Assembly (NCBI RefSeq): GCF_016599855.1
Contig: NZ_CP067041.1
Span: forward strand, 3,472,001-3,536,000
DNA from: Bradyrhizobium diazoefficiens
GTDB lineage: Bacteria; Pseudomonadota; Alphaproteobacteria; Rhizobiales; Xanthobacteraceae
Direction: 5' to 3'
DNA: 64,000 bases
Every line of letters starts with the position of its first letter. Positions within the stretch are counted from its first letter, which is position 1. The notes under the pieces were generated by a model. That model saw only the letters and a list, made by a program, of their open reading frames with translations. It had not been told where the DNA came from and searched no databases. Made by a program: the position numbers and the translations under genes. This document shows positions 27,698 through 33,969 of the stretch, one piece after another.

Positions 27698-28410
27698 TCA
27701 AGCGGCTTTGTGTCCCTTGATCGCGGTGGCCCAGGAATGAACCGTGATCTCTCCGGTCGCACTCGACGGCAATCGGCGCTTCAGCTCCGCACTCTCGGCG
27801 TTCGACAGCTTTCCGAGTATGCCGCTCGGGCTGCTGACGACCATGGAGAGCCAGTAGTCGTCGAAGTCGGCAAATGTCCGCTCGACGACCAGCTCGCGGG
27901 TCTCGATATCGCGAAGACCGAGCTCTGCCCAATGTGCCTTCAGCGCCTCGAAGCGCGAGATGTCCGCACTCGGCGGGCGCGCTGCGGCGATGCCAACCGC
28001 ATCCAGCTCCTCCCACAACGGCTGCGTCGGCGTGCCGCCCCGCAAAATGTCCCAGGTGTAGGACGCAACCATGCCGCCGGGCTTGGTGACGCGCACCATT
28101 TCCGAAGCGCCTTTGCGCGGGTCGGGGACGAAGAACAGCACCAGTGCCATCACCGCGACGTCGAAGCGGCCTGTGTCGTAGGGAAGGCTCATCCCATCGC
28201 CGATCGACAGCTCAACCTGTTTTGCTGAGAACTTCTGGCGCGCCGTTGCAATCTGTGCGTCGGAAGGATCGATCGCGCAAACCCACGACGGAGCGGATTT
28301 CGCAAGAAGGAGCTCGGTGAACGCGCCGTTGCCTGCGCCGATATCCAGCCAGGCCAGTCCAGGGCGCGTCGCCAGCCAGTCGAGGAAGAGGCTGTCCGCG
28401 TCAGACCCGA
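27698..28410 (-). pseudogene. Class I SAM-dependent methyltransferase, 5'-truncated
   Basis: The continuous minus-strand frame reads from about 28410: DADSLFLDWLATRPGLAWLD, the SAM motif IGAGNGAFTELL, then CAIDPSDAQIATARQKF and SIGDGMSLPYDTGRFDVAVM, and on through KPGGMVASYTWD to the stop. The fold is a Methyltransf_11/25 type. About 30 N-terminal residues (normally an AAYE..MGRWSR-like stretch) are missing, and no ATG, GTG or TTG lies in frame before an ATG at 28192, which would delete the SAM site. The break coincides with the end of the neighbouring LysR gene (28401), so the gene was probably cut by insertion of that cluster. Confidence 0.7.
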
Positions 28411-29321
28411 CGACCGCTTTTTGCGATGTGATTCCAGAACGCCTCCGCCGCTCGAGCCAGGCGAAGCTTCGGCCGGAACACGTGGATCTCGATTGGCACG
28501 CACCATTCCAGCCCCCCGGCCGCCACGATCTCGCCGGAGGCGAGTTGATCTGCGATCAGGCTTTCCGGGAGCCACGCCATGCCGCGACCGGCCTGGACCA
28601 TTGTCACGAGCAGCTTCGCCAAATGCGAGGTGAAGGTTGGGCGCAGATGCGCGTCCAGCGGCGACGTCGCGCGCACTGCTTCGAGGATTCGTCCCATGCC
28701 CGATTCAGGGCGGAAGCTCAGGTAGGGCACCGGCGCGCCTCGCGTGCCCGGGAGCTTGAAACGCGGCTTATGGCTTCGGCCTGAAACCGGCACCGATGCC
28801 GGAATAAGCCTGTCGTGGCCGACATGCAGCGAGCGGAAATGTGACGGCGCCAGCGAAGTAGCCGCCGCTGGATGGTAATGGCAGAGCAGGAAATGCGCAT
28901 CGCCGGCCAGCAATATGCGTTCGCAGGCCTCCATGTGATTGGCGACGAGCTGCACGTTTGGAACGAACGACAGCTTGGTCTCGATGCCGCGCAGCCAATC
29001 GGGAAAGAAGGTCAGCGACAGCGCGTTGGTCGAGGCGAACTTCAGCACGTCGGATGCGCCGCGCGCCCGCTCCTGAGCGTCCAGCCGACCGGCGGCGAGC
29101 CGGCGCAGGACGTCCTCGGCAATCTCGCGAAAACCTTCACCCGCCGGCGTGAGATTGACGCTGTGCGTGGTGCGGTCCAGCAACGGTGCGCCGGTCCAGA
29201 CCTCGAGGGCCTGGATCCTGCGGCTCAGCGCGGGCTGCGAGCAATTGCGCTGCTCGGCCGCGCGCGAGAAGCTGCGTGTGGTCGCCACCGCGATGAAATC
29301 GTGCAGCCAGTTGATCTCCAT
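28401..29321 (-). CDS. LysR family transcriptional regulator of the hydro-lyase/transporter cluster
   Basis: A 306-residue LysR regulator. The helix-turn-helix at about 4-60 (FIAVATTRSFSRAAEQRNCS, QPALSRRIQALE) is intact, followed by the periplasmic-binding-like effector domain. AGGAGG is 8 bases before the ATG at 29321, so the TTG at 29339 is not the start. It is divergent from the LeuC-like gene, with a TTATGCA/TGCATAA palindrome in the shared 124-base gap, the typical arrangement of a LysR regulator controlling its neighbour in response to the pathway substrate. Confidence 0.92.
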   Translation of the reverse strand: MEINWLHDFIAVATTRSFSRAAEQRNCSQPALSRRIQALEVWTGAPLLDRTTHSVNLTPAGEGFREIAEDVLRRLAAGRLDAQERARGASDVLKFASTNALSLTFFPDWLRGIETKLSFVPNVQLVANHMEACERILLAGDAHFLLCHYHPAAATSLAPSHFRSLHVGHDRLIPASVPVSGRSHKPRFKLPGTRGAPVPYLSFRPESGMGRILEAVRATSPLDAHLRPTFTSHLAKLLVTMVQAGRGMAWLPESLIADQLASGEIVAAGGLEWCVPIEIHVFRPKLRLARAAEAFWNHIAKSGRRV

Positions 29322-29350
29322 CGCACGGCCTCCTGACAATTAGAATGTGC

Positions 29351-29369
29351 TTATGCATTATTTGCATAA
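29351..29369. promoter_or_regulatory. LysR-type binding site in the divergent promoter
   Basis: TTATGCA and TGCATAA, 7-base perfect arms around TTATT. It contains the T-N11-A pattern (T at 29354, A at 29366) of LysR operators and sits 30 bases upstream of the LysR start codon and 77 upstream of the LeuC-like gene, in AT-rich DNA. Confidence 0.65.
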
Positions 29370-29445
29370 TGATATCAGAACACGACATTGGATTTCCAGT
29401 GCCGCGGGCGCCACCGTGCACCGAGATTTCTCCGGAGGGAGCGCA

Positions 29446-30873
29446 ATGGCCGCGCGCACGCTGTATGACAAGCTGGTGGACGCCCATGTCGTCCGCAATC
29501 TGGACGATGCCGGGCTCGTGCTGCTCTATGTCGATCGCACCGTCCTGAACGAATACACCAGCCCGCAAGCCTTCGCCGGCCTGCGCGCAGCAGGACGCAA
29601 GGTCTGGAATCCCAAGGCGGCGCTGATGGTGGTTGACCACGTCAACCCCACGGCGGCGCGGCGCGTCCGCGCGATGCCTGACAGCGCAGCGACGCGGCAA
29701 GTCGACTATTTCGCCGAGAACGCTAGGGATTTCGGTATCGAATATTTCGACATTCTGGATCCTCGCCAGGGTATCGAGCATGTCGTCGCACCCGAGCAGG
29801 GGCTCGTCATGCCGGGCATGGTGATCGCAGCCGGCGACAGCCACAGCACGGCCTATGGGGCGTTCGGTGCCCTCGGCTACGGCATTGGAACGTCCGACAT
29901 CGAGCACTATCTCGCAACTTCGACGGTGCGCTACCGCCGCCTCAAGACGATGCGCATCCACCTGTCCGGGACAGCGGCGCCGTTCGGCGTGACGCCGAAG
30001 GACATCGTCATGGAGGTGATTCGGCGGATCGGCGCCGACGGTGCGACAGGGTATGCGGTGGAGTTTAGCGGTCCCGCCGTCTCCGACATGAGCGTCGAGG
30101 GCCGGATCGTCATGTCGATCATGATTGTCGAAGCGGGTGCGCGCGGTGTGGTGATCGCGCCGGATCAGAAGGTGCTGGACTATCTGAAGGGACGTCCCCG
30201 CTCCCCCAAGGGCGAGATGTGGGAGCGCGCCGCGACGAACTGGCATGCACTGTCCTCCGATCCATCTGCCAAATTCGACCGCGAAGTGACGCTCGACGTC
30301 TCCGAGGTTGCGCCACTGGTGACCTGGGGCACCAGCCCCGATCAGGCGATCGCGGTGACCGACAATGTTCCCGATCCCGTGAAGCAGGCCGAGCCCCATC
30401 GCAAGGCCGCGGCCATGCGCGCGCTGAGCTATATGGGCCTGACGCCGGGGACGTCCATTCAATCCGTTCCGATCGACTTCGCTTTCATCGGGTCCTGCAC
30501 GAACGCACGGATCGAAGACTTGCGCGATGCGGCCGAGATCTTTCGCGGCCGCCGCGTCGCGGCGGGCGTGCGGGCGATCGTGGTGCCGGGCTCGACCCAG
30601 GTCAGGGTCCAGGCGGAGGCGGAGGGCCTTGCCAAGGTGTTCACCGATGCCGGGGTCGAATGGCGGCAATCCGGCTGCTCGATGTGCCTTGCGATGAACG
30701 ATGACGTGCTGAGCCCGGGACAGCGGTGTGCGTCCTCGACCAACCGCAACTTCGAGGGGCGCCAGGGACCGGGCTCCCGCACGCATCTGATGAGCCCGGC
30801 CATGGTAGCGGCCGCGGCCGTCACCGGCCGCATCACCGACGTACGCTCTCTCCTGGGAGGATCACACCAATGA
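29446..30873 (+). CDS. Aconitase-family hydro-lyase, large subunit (LeuC-like)
   Basis: A 475-residue protein close to the 3-isopropylmalate dehydratase large subunit. The three cysteines for the 4Fe-4S cluster are present: Cys351 (GSCTNARIED), Cys411 and Cys414 (GCSMCLAMNDD), as is the RCASSTNRNFEGRQG substrate block. Differences from leucine-pathway LeuC are DHVNPT at 64-69 in place of DHNVPT, and AGDSHSTAYGAFGAL at 129-143 in place of CGDSHTSTHGAFGAL. With a 2-hydroxycarboxylate transporter next door, a catabolic hydratase/dehydratase role (malate, citramalate or a similar acid) is more likely than leucine synthesis; no leuA or leuB is nearby. GGAGGG precedes the ATG at 29446. Confidence 0.88.
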   Translation: MAARTLYDKLVDAHVVRNLDDAGLVLLYVDRTVLNEYTSPQAFAGLRAAGRKVWNPKAALMVVDHVNPTAARRVRAMPDSAATRQVDYFAENARDFGIEYFDILDPRQGIEHVVAPEQGLVMPGMVIAAGDSHSTAYGAFGALGYGIGTSDIEHYLATSTVRYRRLKTMRIHLSGTAAPFGVTPKDIVMEVIRRIGADGATGYAVEFSGPAVSDMSVEGRIVMSIMIVEAGARGVVIAPDQKVLDYLKGRPRSPKGEMWERAATNWHALSSDPSAKFDREVTLDVSEVAPLVTWGTSPDQAIAVTDNVPDPVKQAEPHRKAAAMRALSYMGLTPGTSIQSVPIDFAFIGSCTNARIEDLRDAAEIFRGRRVAAGVRAIVVPGSTQVRVQAEAEGLAKVFTDAGVEWRQSGCSMCLAMNDDVLSPGQRCASSTNRNFEGRQGPGSRTHLMSPAMVAAAAVTGRITDVRSLLGGSHQ

Positions 30874-31478
30874 CGCCGTTCGACCAAGTCGCCGGGGTCG
30901 CCGCACCGATGATGGCCCCGAACGTCGATACCGACGTCATCATGCCAAAGATGTTTCTCAAGGGCGTGGACCGCAGCGGCCTGGGCGAGGGAGCTTTCAA
31001 CCTGCTGCGCTTCAGCGGCGGCAAGGTTAATCCGGATTTCATCTTGAACCAGGACGGCTATCGCGACGCCTGCTTTCTGGTCGTCGGCCCGAATTTCGGC
31101 TGCGGCTCGAGCCGCGAGCATGCGGTGTGGGGACTCCAGCAGCTCGGTATTCGCGCGCTGATCGGCACCAGCTTCGCCGGCATCTTCAACGACAATTGCG
31201 CCAATAACGGCCTCCTGACGATCTCGCTCGATCCCGAGAGGGTCACGGAGCTTGCCTCTGTCATCACCGACCGCAGCCGCAACGACGTCGCCGTGGACCT
31301 TTCGGCCCAGACCATCCGCTTTGATCGCGGCCGCCGCACGATGCCGTTCGAGATCGAGCCGGCGAGGAAGGAGGCCTTTTTGACTGGGCGCGACTTCATC
31401 GCGTCCACGCTGGTCTATGCCGACGACATTCGCGCGTTCGAGGCGCGCCATCGCGCGGCCAGCCCCTGGATGTTCTGA
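30870..31478 (+). CDS. Aconitase-family hydro-lyase, small subunit (LeuD-like)
   Basis: A 202-residue swivelling domain, the partner of the LeuC-like protein. NVDTDVIMPKMFL (about 18-30) and NFGCGSSREHAVWGLQQLGI (about 74-93) are the LeuD signatures, the latter carrying the substrate-binding Ser and Arg; TSFAGIFNDNCANNGLL follows. Start and upstream stop overlap (ATGA at 30870), with GGGAGG 9 bases before, so the subunits are made in equal amounts. Confidence 0.9.
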   Translation: MTPFDQVAGVAAPMMAPNVDTDVIMPKMFLKGVDRSGLGEGAFNLLRFSGGKVNPDFILNQDGYRDACFLVVGPNFGCGSSREHAVWGLQQLGIRALIGTSFAGIFNDNCANNGLLTISLDPERVTELASVITDRSRNDVAVDLSAQTIRFDRGRRTMPFEIEPARKEAFLTGRDFIASTLVYADDIRAFEARHRAASPWMF

Positions 31479-31527
31479 ACTGCGGATCGAACACGTCGAG
31501 GCGCGCCGGATCGCGTCACCTACGAAT

Positions 31528-32889
31528 ATGACAAAAACAGTGGAGGAACTCTTGGCTGACACGACATACCGAACCGCGGCTGCGCCGCCGGCCGCCTCGT
31601 CACAGACCAGAACTCCGGCAGCGCTCGCCGCCCTCAGGATCGGTCCGTTGCCCATCGGGGTCTACATTGCCGCTGCGGCAGTCTGTGCGGCTGCTGTGTA
31701 TTCCGGCAAGCTGCCCAATGACGTGATCGGCGGTCTCTCGCTCCTGATGCTGCTCGGCTTCCTGCTCGGCAAGCTCGGTCAGACCATTCCGGTGCTGAAG
31801 CAGGTCGGCGGAACTGCGATTCTCTGTCTGTTCGTTCCCGCGGCGTTGGTGAGCTACGGATTGATGCCCGAGGCGGCCCTGAAAGCGATCACCACGACTT
31901 TCCGTACGGCAAATTTCCAGTATTTCTTCATCGCCTGTCTCGTTGCAGGATCGATCCTCGGTATGCCCTATCGTGTGCTGGTCCAGGGCTTCATCCGCAT
32001 GTTCGTTCCGCTTCTGATCGGGACGCTCGCGGCTGTGTCCGCCGGCATCGCCATCGGCCTGTTGTTCGGCCATGGCCCCAAGGACACGTTCTTCTTCATC
32101 ATCATCCCGATCATCGGAGGTGGCCTCGCAGAGGGCGTGCTGCCGCTCTCCATCGCCTATTCGGAGATTTTGCAGCAGCCGCAGGGCGATCTTGTCGCGC
32201 AGATGGTCCCGGCGGCGCTGCTTGGAAATGTCGTCGCGATCGTCTGCGCAGGTCTGCTGGCGCGCCTCGGCGAGACGCGCCGGGATCTCAACGGTGAGGG
32301 CATGCTGGTCAAGACCGGCGACGAGGACATTCTTGGCGAGACGCGACCCGACCAACCGATCGATCTCGGATTGCTTGGCGCAGGAATCGTGCTGTCTTGC
32401 GTGCTTTTCGTGCTCGGCATGACCCTGGCGCCATTCACGGGGATTCCAGGTCCGATCATGATGATCGTCGCTGCGGTAGCCCTGAAGCTGACCAAGATCC
32501 TGCCTGTCGAGATGGAGCTGGGCGCCTATCAGATCAACAAGTTCATGTCGACGAACCTGACCTTTGCCATCCTGGTTGCGATGGGCACGTTGCTGGTCAA
32601 GTGGGAGCAACTCGCGGCATCCTTCAACCCGGGCTACATCGCGATCTGCACCGCAACGGTGCTGGCTATGATTGCGTCAGGTTTCTATGCCGGCAAGTGG
32701 CTCAACATGTATCCAGTCGAGGCGGCGATCGTGACGGCCTGCCACTCGGGCCTCGGCGGCACCGGCGACGTCGCCATTCTCGGAGCGGCCGATCGCATGG
32801 GTCTGATGGCGTTCGCTCAGATCGCAACGCGCGTCGGCGGTGCCATCATGATCGTGATCGCAACGCTGCTGATGAAGTCGTTGTCTTGA
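31528..32889 (+). CDS. 2-hydroxycarboxylate transporter (2HCT/CitS-CimH family)
   Basis: A secondary transporter of about 453 residues with some ten or eleven hydrophobic segments. Both re-entrant signatures of the 2HCT family are visible: PIIGGGLAEGVLPLSIAYSE in the first half, and SGLGGTGDVAILGAADRMGL followed by FAQIATRVGGA in the second, whose Arg binds the substrate carboxylate in CitS/CitP. Family members carry citrate, malate, citramalate or lactate with Na+ or H+. The ATG at 31528 has no ribosome-binding site; a TTG at 31552 (GGAGGAACTC just before it) is an attractive alternative that would shorten the protein by 8 residues. It lies 49 bases after the LeuD-like gene. Confidence 0.9.
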   Translation: MTKTVEELLADTTYRTAAAPPAASSQTRTPAALAALRIGPLPIGVYIAAAAVCAAAVYSGKLPNDVIGGLSLLMLLGFLLGKLGQTIPVLKQVGGTAILCLFVPAALVSYGLMPEAALKAITTTFRTANFQYFFIACLVAGSILGMPYRVLVQGFIRMFVPLLIGTLAAVSAGIAIGLLFGHGPKDTFFFIIIPIIGGGLAEGVLPLSIAYSEILQQPQGDLVAQMVPAALLGNVVAIVCAGLLARLGETRRDLNGEGMLVKTGDEDILGETRPDQPIDLGLLGAGIVLSCVLFVLGMTLAPFTGIPGPIMMIVAAVALKLTKILPVEMELGAYQINKFMSTNLTFAILVAMGTLLVKWEQLAASFNPGYIAICTATVLAMIASGFYAGKWLNMYPVEAAIVTACHSGLGGTGDVAILGAADRMGLMAFAQIATRVGGAIMIVIATLLMKSLS

Positions 32890-32937
32890 TCTGCACGGCT
32901 GGACTCCACGCCGAACGAATATTCCAGGGAGGTTTCA

Positions 32938-33969
32938 ATGCTCGACAATGAACAAGATGGATCGACCCCGTCAACGACGGGCCTGACTCGCCGACATGTG
33001 GTGTCACTGGCGCTGACAACGGGAGCCGTCGGCTCGTTCGTCGCGGCGCAAGGCGCCTTCGCACAGGAGAATAATGCGATGAATAGCAGTGCGCTCCAGA
33101 AGCTACTGCCGGGATTTCAACAGAGGCGGATCAAGACCAGCGGAGCCGAGATCAACGCACTCGTGAGAGGCGAGGGACCGCCGCTGCTCTTGCTGCATGG
33201 CCATCCGCAGACACTCGCATGCTGGCACAAGGTCGCGCCCAGGTTGGCGGAACGCTTTACCGTGGTGCTGACCGATCTGCGCGGCTATGGCGACTCGAGC
33301 AAGCCTGATGGCGGCAAGGACAACATTGCCTATTCCAAGCGCGCGATGGCGCGGGATCAGGTCGAATTGATGCGCGCGCTCGGTTTTGACCGTTTTCACG
33401 CCGTCGGCCACGATCGCGGTGGGCGCGTTCTGCATCGTCTGCTGCTTGACCACCCGGGTGCCGTCCCCAAGGCGGTCCTGCTCGACATCGCGCCGACCGC
33501 GACAATGTATGCGAGGGCGAACAAGGAATTCGCGACGCGCTACATGTGGTGGTTCTTCCTCATCCAGCCGGCTCCACTTCCGGAAACCTTGATCGGCAAC
33601 AATCTCGAATTCTATCTTCAGACCCATATCAACAAGCAGAACAAGACGCCGGGAGCCATCGATCCGGTTGCGCTCGATGAGTACCGGCGGTGCTACACTC
33701 GCGAGACTCTGCACGCCGTGTGCGAAGATTATCGCGCCGCCGCCGGAATCGACCTGATCCACGACGAGGCGGATTCCGAAAGGAGGATCGGTTGCCCGCT
33801 CCTCGTGCTTTGGGGCGAAAAGGGTGTGGTCGGATCGACCTATGACGTGCTCGATACCTGGCGCGCCAAAGCGAACAACGTGCAAGGCGGAAGCCTGCCC
33901 TGCGGACATTACCTGCCGGAGGAAGCGCCGGAGCTTCTGCTGCAGAAGCTCGACGCCTTTTTCACGTGA
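32938..33969 (+). CDS. Tat-exported alpha/beta hydrolase resembling haloacetate dehalogenase
   Basis: 343 residues. The N-terminus has a twin-arginine signal (LTRRHVVSLALTTG, about 16-29, with GAFAQ near 39-43), so the protein is probably folded before export. The mature part is an alpha/beta hydrolase: LLLLHGHPQT, then nucleophile Asp159 in GHDRGGR with Arg160 and Arg163, Asp183 and His324 (CGHYLPEEAPE). These line up with Asp110, Arg111, Arg114, Asp134 and His280 of Rhodopseudomonas fluoroacetate dehalogenase as I recall it. Tyr265 matches the halide-binding Tyr, but the halide-binding His is Trp204 here. Either a dehalogenase with a different halide preference or a relative acting on other bonds. 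GGGAGG precedes the ATG. Confidence 0.85.
   Translation: MLDNEQDGSTPSTTGLTRRHVVSLALTTGAVGSFVAAQGAFAQENNAMNSSALQKLLPGFQQRRIKTSGAEINALVRGEGPPLLLLHGHPQTLACWHKVAPRLAERFTVVLTDLRGYGDSSKPDGGKDNIAYSKRAMARDQVELMRALGFDRFHAVGHDRGGRVLHRLLLDHPGAVPKAVLLDIAPTATMYARANKEFATRYMWWFFLIQPAPLPETLIGNNLEFYLQTHINKQNKTPGAIDPVALDEYRRCYTRETLHAVCEDYRAAAGIDLIHDEADSERRIGCPLLVLWGEKGVVGSTYDVLDTWRAKANNVQGGSLPCGHYLPEEAPELLLQKLDAFFT

Follow-up and report, generated by a model that had tools for sequence, protein, structure and literature searches.

Genes and features of the locus

The locus described here lies in a 64,000-nucleotide stretch of the Bradyrhizobium diazoefficiens genome (NZ_CP067041.1, positions 3,472,001 to 3,536,000; hereafter the window), a genome of 7.1 Mb in a single contig. 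At 28401..33969 of the window, the gene of a LysR-type regulator stands divergent from a leuC-like/leuD-like pair, which we name leuC2 and leuD2 and which is followed by the genes of a 2-hydroxycarboxylate transporter (2HCT) and of an alpha/beta hydrolase (Table 1). We refer to this gene set as the module. Its LeuCD pair is a paralogue, and we interpret the locus as a putative catabolic operon. The initial annotation, made from the DNA alone, had placed the same five genes here and assigned them to the same families, and profile matches confirmed both points. With regard to the gene limits, the five open reading frames and the ATGA overlap between leuC2 and leuD2 stood, whereas three starts were revised from the sequence: the LysR frame had been opened at TTG 29339, the ATG now chosen for leuC2 has GGAGG shortly 5' of it and replaces GTG 29347, and of the two candidate starts of the 2HCT gene the TTG is preceded by GGAGGA. 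The 2HCT stop and the hydrolase gene are 48 bases apart, and the gene that follows the hydrolase encodes an ABC-F-type protein on the opposite strand, so that leuC2, leuD2, the carrier and the hydrolase can be read as one transcript.

Table 1. Genes and features of the locus, in window coordinates
Feature	Position	Strand	Assignment and remarks
LysR-type regulator	28401..29321	-	PF00126/PF03466; divergent from leuC2; best start ATG 29321
Inverted repeat TTATGCA-N5-TGCATAA	29351-29369	none	probable LysR operator
LeuC-like large subunit (LeuC2)	29446..30873	+	aconitase-family hydro-lyase; PF00330, 510 bits; best start ATG 29446
LeuD-like small subunit (LeuD2)	30870..31478	+	PF00694, 98 bits; ATGA overlap with leuC2 at 30870-30873
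2HCT transporter	31528..32889	+	PF03390, 476 bits; start ATG 31528 or TTG 31552
Alpha/beta hydrolase	32938..33969	+	fluoroacetate-dehalogenase family; PF00561; twin-arginine signal at residues ~1-42

The LysR-type palindrome that had been noted between the divergent LysR and leuC2 genes is real: it is a perfect repeat and probably the LysR operator. In all 12 Bradyrhizobium loci tested, which include the window and are drawn from the 16 Bradyrhizobium modules in the LeuC tree described below, its arms were identical and its spacer variable. Among the loci checked for the repeat, it was not intact in two Xanthobacter loci and was absent in L029. The LysR proteins of the Bradyrhizobium and Xanthobacter loci are 59-94% identical to that of the window. 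When the 124-bp gap was shuffled 4000 times, 166 of the shuffles contained an equally long repeat, and we therefore dropped the palindrome as strong evidence by itself.

LeuC2D2 is a separate paralogue clade

LeuC2D2 passes the sequence-family test for LeuCD, as LeuC2 scores 618 bits with TIGR00170 (cut-off 560) and 747 bits with NF009116, and LeuD2 scores 174 bits with TIGR00171 (cut-off 116). The window genome has its own canonical leuC (G000:C1:344301, 54% identical to LeuC2), a separate leuD (341605) and, at 330621, a probable leuB. LeuC2D2 is thus neither the sole leuCD copy nor linked to other leu genes; the case of a sole leuCD copy, which the initial annotation had named as one that would overturn its catabolic proposal, is excluded as to copy number. 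Of the 47 genomes in which the scan described below found a 2HCT module, 28 were searched, and all 28 had a separate leuC of at least 772 bits that outscored the module copy.

In a tree of 96 LeuC sequences, the 60 module sequences form one clade with a support of 100 in the SH-like approximate likelihood ratio test (SH-aLRT), outside which lie 29 canonical LeuC and 7 other paralogues. LeuC2 stands apart in this tree from the canonical LeuC that these genomes also encode, which speaks for the initial reading of a catabolic LeuCD-like pair. The tree was built without L097, L154, L142, L141 and L139 (second copies of included genes), without L087, and without L036, which was removed by a 90% coverage filter. 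On account of the separate leuC and leuD, the leuC in all 28 genomes and the separate clade, leucine synthesis was rejected as the main role of the pair.

The module and canonical sets are also separated by single positions. LeuC position 35 changes from H to N and position 37 from V to Y (60/60 module versus 29/29 canonical sequences), so that LeuC2 reads NEYTSPQ where canonical LeuC reads HEVTSPQ. LeuD position 86 changes from P to V and position 88 from A to G (61/61 versus 14/14), and position 32 from S/T to G in 56 of the 61 module sequences; LeuD2 has IMPKMFLKGVDR and SSREHAVWG, the genome's own canonical LeuD IIPKQYLKTIKR and SSREHAPWA. The alignment puts LeuC position 35 at a Gln of mitochondrial aconitase (Gln72 by our count), which we take to be an active-site residue on the substrate side. 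As judged by these positions, LeuC2D2 retains the catalytic frame and probably has an altered substrate pocket.

The carrier and the spread of the module

The carrier matches PF03390 in full length (profile positions 2-415 of 415) and is the only match to this profile in its genome. Among solved structures it is closest to citrate/sodium symporters (up to 176 bits), and with 446 bits in TIGR00783 it falls below the curated citrate:cation symporter cut-off of 549. Species genomes were scanned with a 2HCT alignment, which gave at least 567 matches, and the best 80 were analysed. LeuC, LeuD and 2HCT genes stood together in 47 of these 80 loci, which with the window and three plasmid records gives 51 loci. 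The genera are Bradyrhizobium, Xanthobacter, Azospirillum, Nitrospirillum, Beijerinckia, Herbaspirillum, Ralstonia, Pandoraea, Caballeronia, Burkholderia, Massilia and others. A conserved neighbourhood of all five genes, as proposed initially, therefore holds for the leuC-leuD-2HCT part across many genera; the hydrolase adjoins 8 of the 51 modules, all eight from Bradyrhizobium or Xanthobacter, and the idea of five genes as one constant unit has to be given up. The other outcome named initially as a refutation, loss of the common neighbourhood in related genomes, thus applies in part, to the hydrolase.

Downstream of the 2HCT modules no other gene family was widely shared among the 51 loci. 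Ten other neighbours were scanned as possible guides to function and set aside, as they belonged to unrelated families (TauE, MCP, GNAT, chorismate synthase, secretory lipase and others) or to none. On two plasmids of peanut Bradyrhizobium and in one genome (L007, 10291-12834; L008; L017), the place of the hydrolase is taken by other genes: after 2HCT comes a gene annotated as mannonate dehydratase, which had no NCBIfam match at 1e-30, and then a lipase-family gene.

Active site and export signal of the hydrolase

The nearest solved homologues of the hydrolase are fluoroacetate dehalogenases. Its Asp nucleophile D159 and the carboxylate arginines R160 and R163 are kept in the 53 distinct sequences compared, and in these respects the dehalogenase-like active site seen initially stands. 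For the halide pair it does not, and a dehalogenase role is no more than a candidate: the pair is His155 and Trp156 in RPA1163 (PMC11022551). The homologues 3qyj, 8sdc and 9c9f likewise have His-Trp (HW), whereas the His is replaced by Trp (WW) in the window hydrolase and its clade. At the place that we take to be that of the third halide residue Tyr219, the window hydrolase has Gly, as does the active DAR3835. The halide-pair change was discarded as a marker of the link to LeuCD, since WW and HW both occur with LeuCD, with TTC-like dehydrogenases (see below) and with neither. A structure model confirms the fold only (mean predicted local distance difference test score 73.4, residues 1-46 below 50).

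The N-terminus, LTRRHVVSLALTTGAVGSFVAAQGAFAQ, carries a twin-arginine signal by eye and by pattern (LTRRHVVS, a hydrophobic stretch and an AFAQ end), which makes the hydrolase a predicted substrate of twin-arginine translocation (Tat). Such a signal was found in 8/8 hydrolases of 2HCT clusters versus 0/20 others, namely 0/11 in other LeuCD clusters and 0/9 beside TTC; an RR match in L191 lies within an over-long frame and is apparent only. Of ten metagenome hydrolases on contigs equal in length to the contig of a listed 2HCT protein, with adjacency not seen, eight had the twin arginine. In addition, two module-bearing Bradyrhizobium genomes carry an exported hydrolase away from the module. The order put forward initially, hydrolase first and import second, fits the 8/8 count. 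By the same comparison, 2HCT would go with an exported hydrolase, and the carriers DctA and MFS, described below, with an internal hydrolase acting after import.

The hydrolase and its partners beyond Bradyrhizobium

At E 1e-90 the hydrolase was present in 34 of 398 Pseudomonadota genomes, with 37 matches. Within about 1.1 kb of the hydrolase, LeuCD stands in 7 of the 36 loci other than the window and a TTC-like dehydrogenase in 8; the two never occur together, and 21 loci have neither. TTC identity was verified by TIGR02089 in two of the eight loci (561 and 546 bits). A LeuD2 profile was run over as many genomes (398), drawn likewise, with the cut set by a gap from 287.8 to 265.5 bits. LeuD2 was present in 12 of them, and in 8 of these 12 genomes, the window included, the hydrolase is in the cluster. 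By our own estimate, chance adjacency of LeuC and hydrolase would be about one in a hundred, given some two leuC copies in several Mb. The tie between the hydrolase and the LeuC2D2 clade thus extends beyond Bradyrhizobium in an unselected sample.

The carrier changes from cluster to cluster. DctA is in its place in L137, L182 and L206, and MFS in L173 and L251. In the Klebsiella plasmid cluster (L173, 4989-11179) the MFS gene accompanies leuC-leuD-FAH-hydrolase-LysR, and an Escherichia coli island with the same set was present in the four best-ranked of 5426 genomes (one of the four was read), whereas the match ranked fifth extended over no more than 19% of the query. A Pantoea cluster has leuC-leuD-hydrolase-LysR with mqo, a Methylobacterium cluster LysR-leuC-leuD-hydrolase and a Moraxella cluster leuC-leuD-hydrolase-LysR. 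The Klebsiella set is flanked by insertion sequences near copper genes on an IncFIB/IncHI1B plasmid, and at least 62 Klebsiella records, among the matches listed, have a LeuC match, not all of them of the LeuC2 clade. In L187 (6764-8866), L189 (6918-8942) and L178 (5918-7888), which come from a Ruegeria plasmid and from two genomes that share a genus within that class, a TTC-like tartrate/D-malate dehydrogenase gene is followed by the hydrolase gene with zero bases between.

Mapped on the hydrolase tree, which has 53 rows, the LeuCD label outside 2HCT operons requires 8 changes and that of TTC 6. L137 (LeuCD) has L210 (TTC) as its sister at 100/99, and L213 (LeuCD) and L205 (TTC), of one genus, pair at 92/45. 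As LeuCD and TTC swap so often beside the hydrolase, both perhaps use the same product. Such mutual replacement next to a third gene is often a sign of a shared step, and LeuC2D2 and TTC may thus act on the same acid.

A proposed pathway

We consider a general scheme likely in which an exported hydrolase acts first, the 2HCT carrier then imports the product, and LeuC2D2 acts on it as a hydro-lyase, all under LysR control. The Tat-exported hydrolase, with its Asp nucleophile and two arginines holding a carboxylate, would attack the adjacent carbon of a C4 dicarboxylate and leave a hydroxyl with inversion. The preferred reaction would be trans-epoxysuccinate to meso-tartrate, the second choice 2-halosuccinate to malate. 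As its family suggests, the carrier would import the resulting 2-hydroxy acid, which LeuC2D2 would dehydrate, in the case of meso-tartrate to enol-oxaloacetate and hence oxaloacetate. Oxaloacetate would join the tricarboxylic acid cycle without a further dedicated enzyme. Naming trans-epoxysuccinate, meso-tartrate and oxaloacetate as the compounds involved is a tentative choice. That the locus is an operon under LysR control for the catabolism of a small 2-hydroxydicarboxylic acid, with scheme and substrates taken as a whole, seems to us a reasonable possibility a little short of probable; D-malate or maleate (the chief rival), halosuccinate and citramalate are open as candidate alternatives.

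This chemistry is preferred because each gene gains a role and the exchange of LeuCD for TTC is explained. LeuCD and LeuB-type enzymes, TTC included, act on (2R,3S)-3-substituted malates; by our reasoning, such a malate with OH as the substituent is meso-tartrate, which is the inversion product of opening trans-epoxysuccinate. TTC-type enzymes accept D-malate and tartrates, and DmlA is a D-malate dehydrogenase of the TTC-type family. E. coli K-12 is reported to have evolved growth on m-tartrate by mutation of dmlA and of the promoter region of this gene (PMC6452873). The L-tartrate-forming cis-epoxysuccinate hydrolases are described (PMC6429283) as resembling L-2-haloacid dehalogenase and as working through an ester intermediate. 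Oxaloacetate as the end product would also explain why 43 of the 51 modules do without further linked enzymes. The FAH protein of the Klebsiella and E. coli clusters is a possible oxaloacetate tautomerase, an activity of some FAH members.

Several observations weigh against this proposal. The same 43 modules lack an adjoining hydrolase, and among the 28 module genomes the hydrolase is linked to 2HCT in 7 and to a second LeuC2D2 in 1, lies elsewhere in 13, and was not found at E 1e-80 in 7. Four of the 12 LeuD2 clusters also lack it. Two of them (L247, 2415-10037, in G082, and L249, 8050-14239, in G287) hold a CitMHS citrate-type carrier, a D-2-hydroxyacid dehydrogenase, an AtuA-family protein, LeuC2 and LeuD2, with a PrpD-family protein added in L247; the third (L250) has TctC and a beta-lactamase-fold protein, and the neighbours of the fourth (L248) were left unannotated. 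With such other partners in the clusters without hydrolase, the LeuC2D2 clade may serve more than one acid or a second pathway. On the hydrolase tree the LeuCD label is weakly clustered (21 of 500 shuffles were as low). The exported hydrolases of the 2HCT operons form one clade (100/99), so that their match with 2HCT is maybe one evolutionary event and weaker than the count suggests, and the metagenome hydrolases P0276 and P0305 have no twin arginine. Asn at LeuC position 35 also occurs in two other LeuC paralogues. The window genome carries two TTC-type dehydrogenases elsewhere, which makes a D-malate route available. The closest solved relatives of the hydrolase are reported to defluorinate fluoroacetate and difluoroacetate (PMC11022551), and the literature searched, with most subscription journals outside it, reports no family member as active on epoxysuccinate or tartrate.

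Alternative explanations

The chief rival is a module for maleate and D-malate, in which LeuC2D2 would be a maleate hydratase like HbzIJ, the D-malate dehydrogenase would be encoded elsewhere, and the hydrolase would make D-malate from L-2-halosuccinate. LeuCD-like maleate hydratases are known, and the TTC-like dehydrogenases that adjoin the hydrolase in 8 of the 36 loci use D-malate. The two TTC-type enzymes elsewhere in the window genome, the three clusters in which DctA replaces 2HCT and the Mqo beside the Pantoea cluster point the same way. However, LeuCD would be superfluous if the hydrolase itself yielded D-malate, 2HCT carriers prefer a hydroxyl that maleate does not have, and neither a gentisate-pathway family nor a maleate isomerase family was found among the selected neighbour genes scanned, which are part of all neighbours. 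We regard this explanation as doubtful.

A salvage of 2-alkylmalates appears quite unlikely. Here 2HCT would import (R)-citramalate or 2-isopropylmalate, which LeuC2D2 would isomerise to the 3-isomer for the housekeeping LeuB. This would keep the ancestral LeuCD chemistry, in agreement with the TIGR00170 score above cut-off (618 versus 560) and the probable leuB, and both acids have the 2-hydroxyl. On the other hand, the differing motif positions indicate another 3-substituent, the canonical leuC present in 28/28 genomes could do the job, and no role is left for the hydrolase or the alternative TTC partner.

Catabolism of true haloacids is improbable. The hydrolase would then be an exported dehalogenase for 2-halosuccinate or a similar acid, and 2HCT and LeuC2D2 would handle a malate-type product. 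The fluoroacetate dehalogenases as nearest solved homologues and the Asp, Arg and Arg kept in 53 sequences speak for it, but malate does not require LeuC2D2, the window clade has Trp for the halide-pair His, and natural C4 haloacids are rare. Two close homologues are reported to defluorinate small haloacids (PMC11022551), which also counts in its favour. Finally, it is highly improbable that the hydrolase is an accidental neighbour of a LysR-LeuC2D2-2HCT module for a soil or root-exudate hydroxydicarboxylate, since its absence from 43 of 51 2HCT modules is countered by its presence in the clusters of 8 of 12 LeuD2 genomes of the unselected sample and by the recurrence of the linkage at several places on the hydrolase tree.

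Relation to known systems

LeuC2D2 shares with 3-isopropylmalate dehydratase the two-subunit aconitase-family architecture, the SSRE motif and the names LeuC/LeuD in NCBIfam and public annotation. It differs from canonical LeuCD in its separate clade, its changed motifs, its link to carriers and a hydrolase and its coexistence with a better-scoring leuC (28/28). The HbzIJ maleate hydratase of the gentisate pathway is another LeuCD-like pair, and it serves in the breakdown of a C4 acid; unlike that system, the window cluster has no gentisate genes. The fluoroacetate dehalogenases RPA1163, DAR3835 (8sdc), NOS0089/Alr0039 (3qyj) and D4B (9c9f) have the halide-pair His where the window hydrolase has Trp, and the latter adds the twin-arginine signal and an operon with LeuCD and 2HCT. 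The tartrate genes ttuABCDE of Agrobacterium vitis include a LysR regulator, a carrier and a TTC dehydrogenase like those found beside the hydrolase elsewhere; unlike the window module, they are not known to include LeuCD or such a hydrolase. A Serratia hydrolase with a Ser nucleophile is reported to have dehalogenase activity (PMC13230308).

As in the window genome, a second LeuCD pair exists in Salmonella Typhimurium: STM0329-STM0330 is given as a second isopropylmalate dehydratase, and a metabolic model lets it make leucine (PMC2678070). The Salmonella enterica hydrolase 4nvr matches the Klebsiella cluster hydrolase with 541 bits over 304 residues. STM0329-0330 lies near proBA and is perhaps the supQ-newD pair of leuD suppression; 4nvr may stand beside it, and the pair may belong to the LeuC2D2 clade. 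To our knowledge, the original function of supQ-newD, the classical foreign-subunit replacement of LeuD, was never settled, nor has an everyday substrate of the fluoroacetate-dehalogenase family been established. A wider claim is that LeuC2D2 would be a meso-tartrate dehydratase of the aconitase family, as yet without a name, and that the hydrolase family linked to it would naturally be a trans-epoxysuccinate hydrolase and not a dehalogenase. With swappable carriers, the two would make up a widespread pathway from fungal epoxysuccinate/tartrate to oxaloacetate, with the first step outside the cytoplasm in Bradyrhizobium, and this would also be the original function of supQ-newD; we think it unlikely to hold in full.

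If the clade is catabolic, the public records that label its members as leucine biosynthesis are misleading, and so is the leucine label of STM0329-STM0330 in the Salmonella model (PMC2678070). The link of hydrolase and LeuCD also supplies a natural context for the fluoroacetate-dehalogenase family, which has been studied for defluorination, and the clusters yield a short list of substrates for the function of supQ-newD and LeuC2D2. The literature searched contained no description of the module, no trans-epoxysuccinate hydrolase gene and no supQ-newD paper. As the initial annotation had supposed, no system with the four activities together turned up in it, and as far as this literature shows, the module is an undescribed variant of known parts.

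Further members of the aconitase family were seen in passing. The window genome has one more at G000:C1:1403785-1404741, with PF00330 in two pieces of one 434-aa frame. In L140 (5246-9569, in G010) an operon combines a LeuCD paralogue of another kind with a gene of the isopropylmalate-dehydrogenase family and one for an NMT1-type binding protein. Two more LeuC paralogues lie on one Bradyrhizobium contig (L134, 8018-10411, and L135, 7243-10689, in G011), one adjoining an HpcH/HpaI aldolase-family gene and the other a LeuD and a cupin protein.

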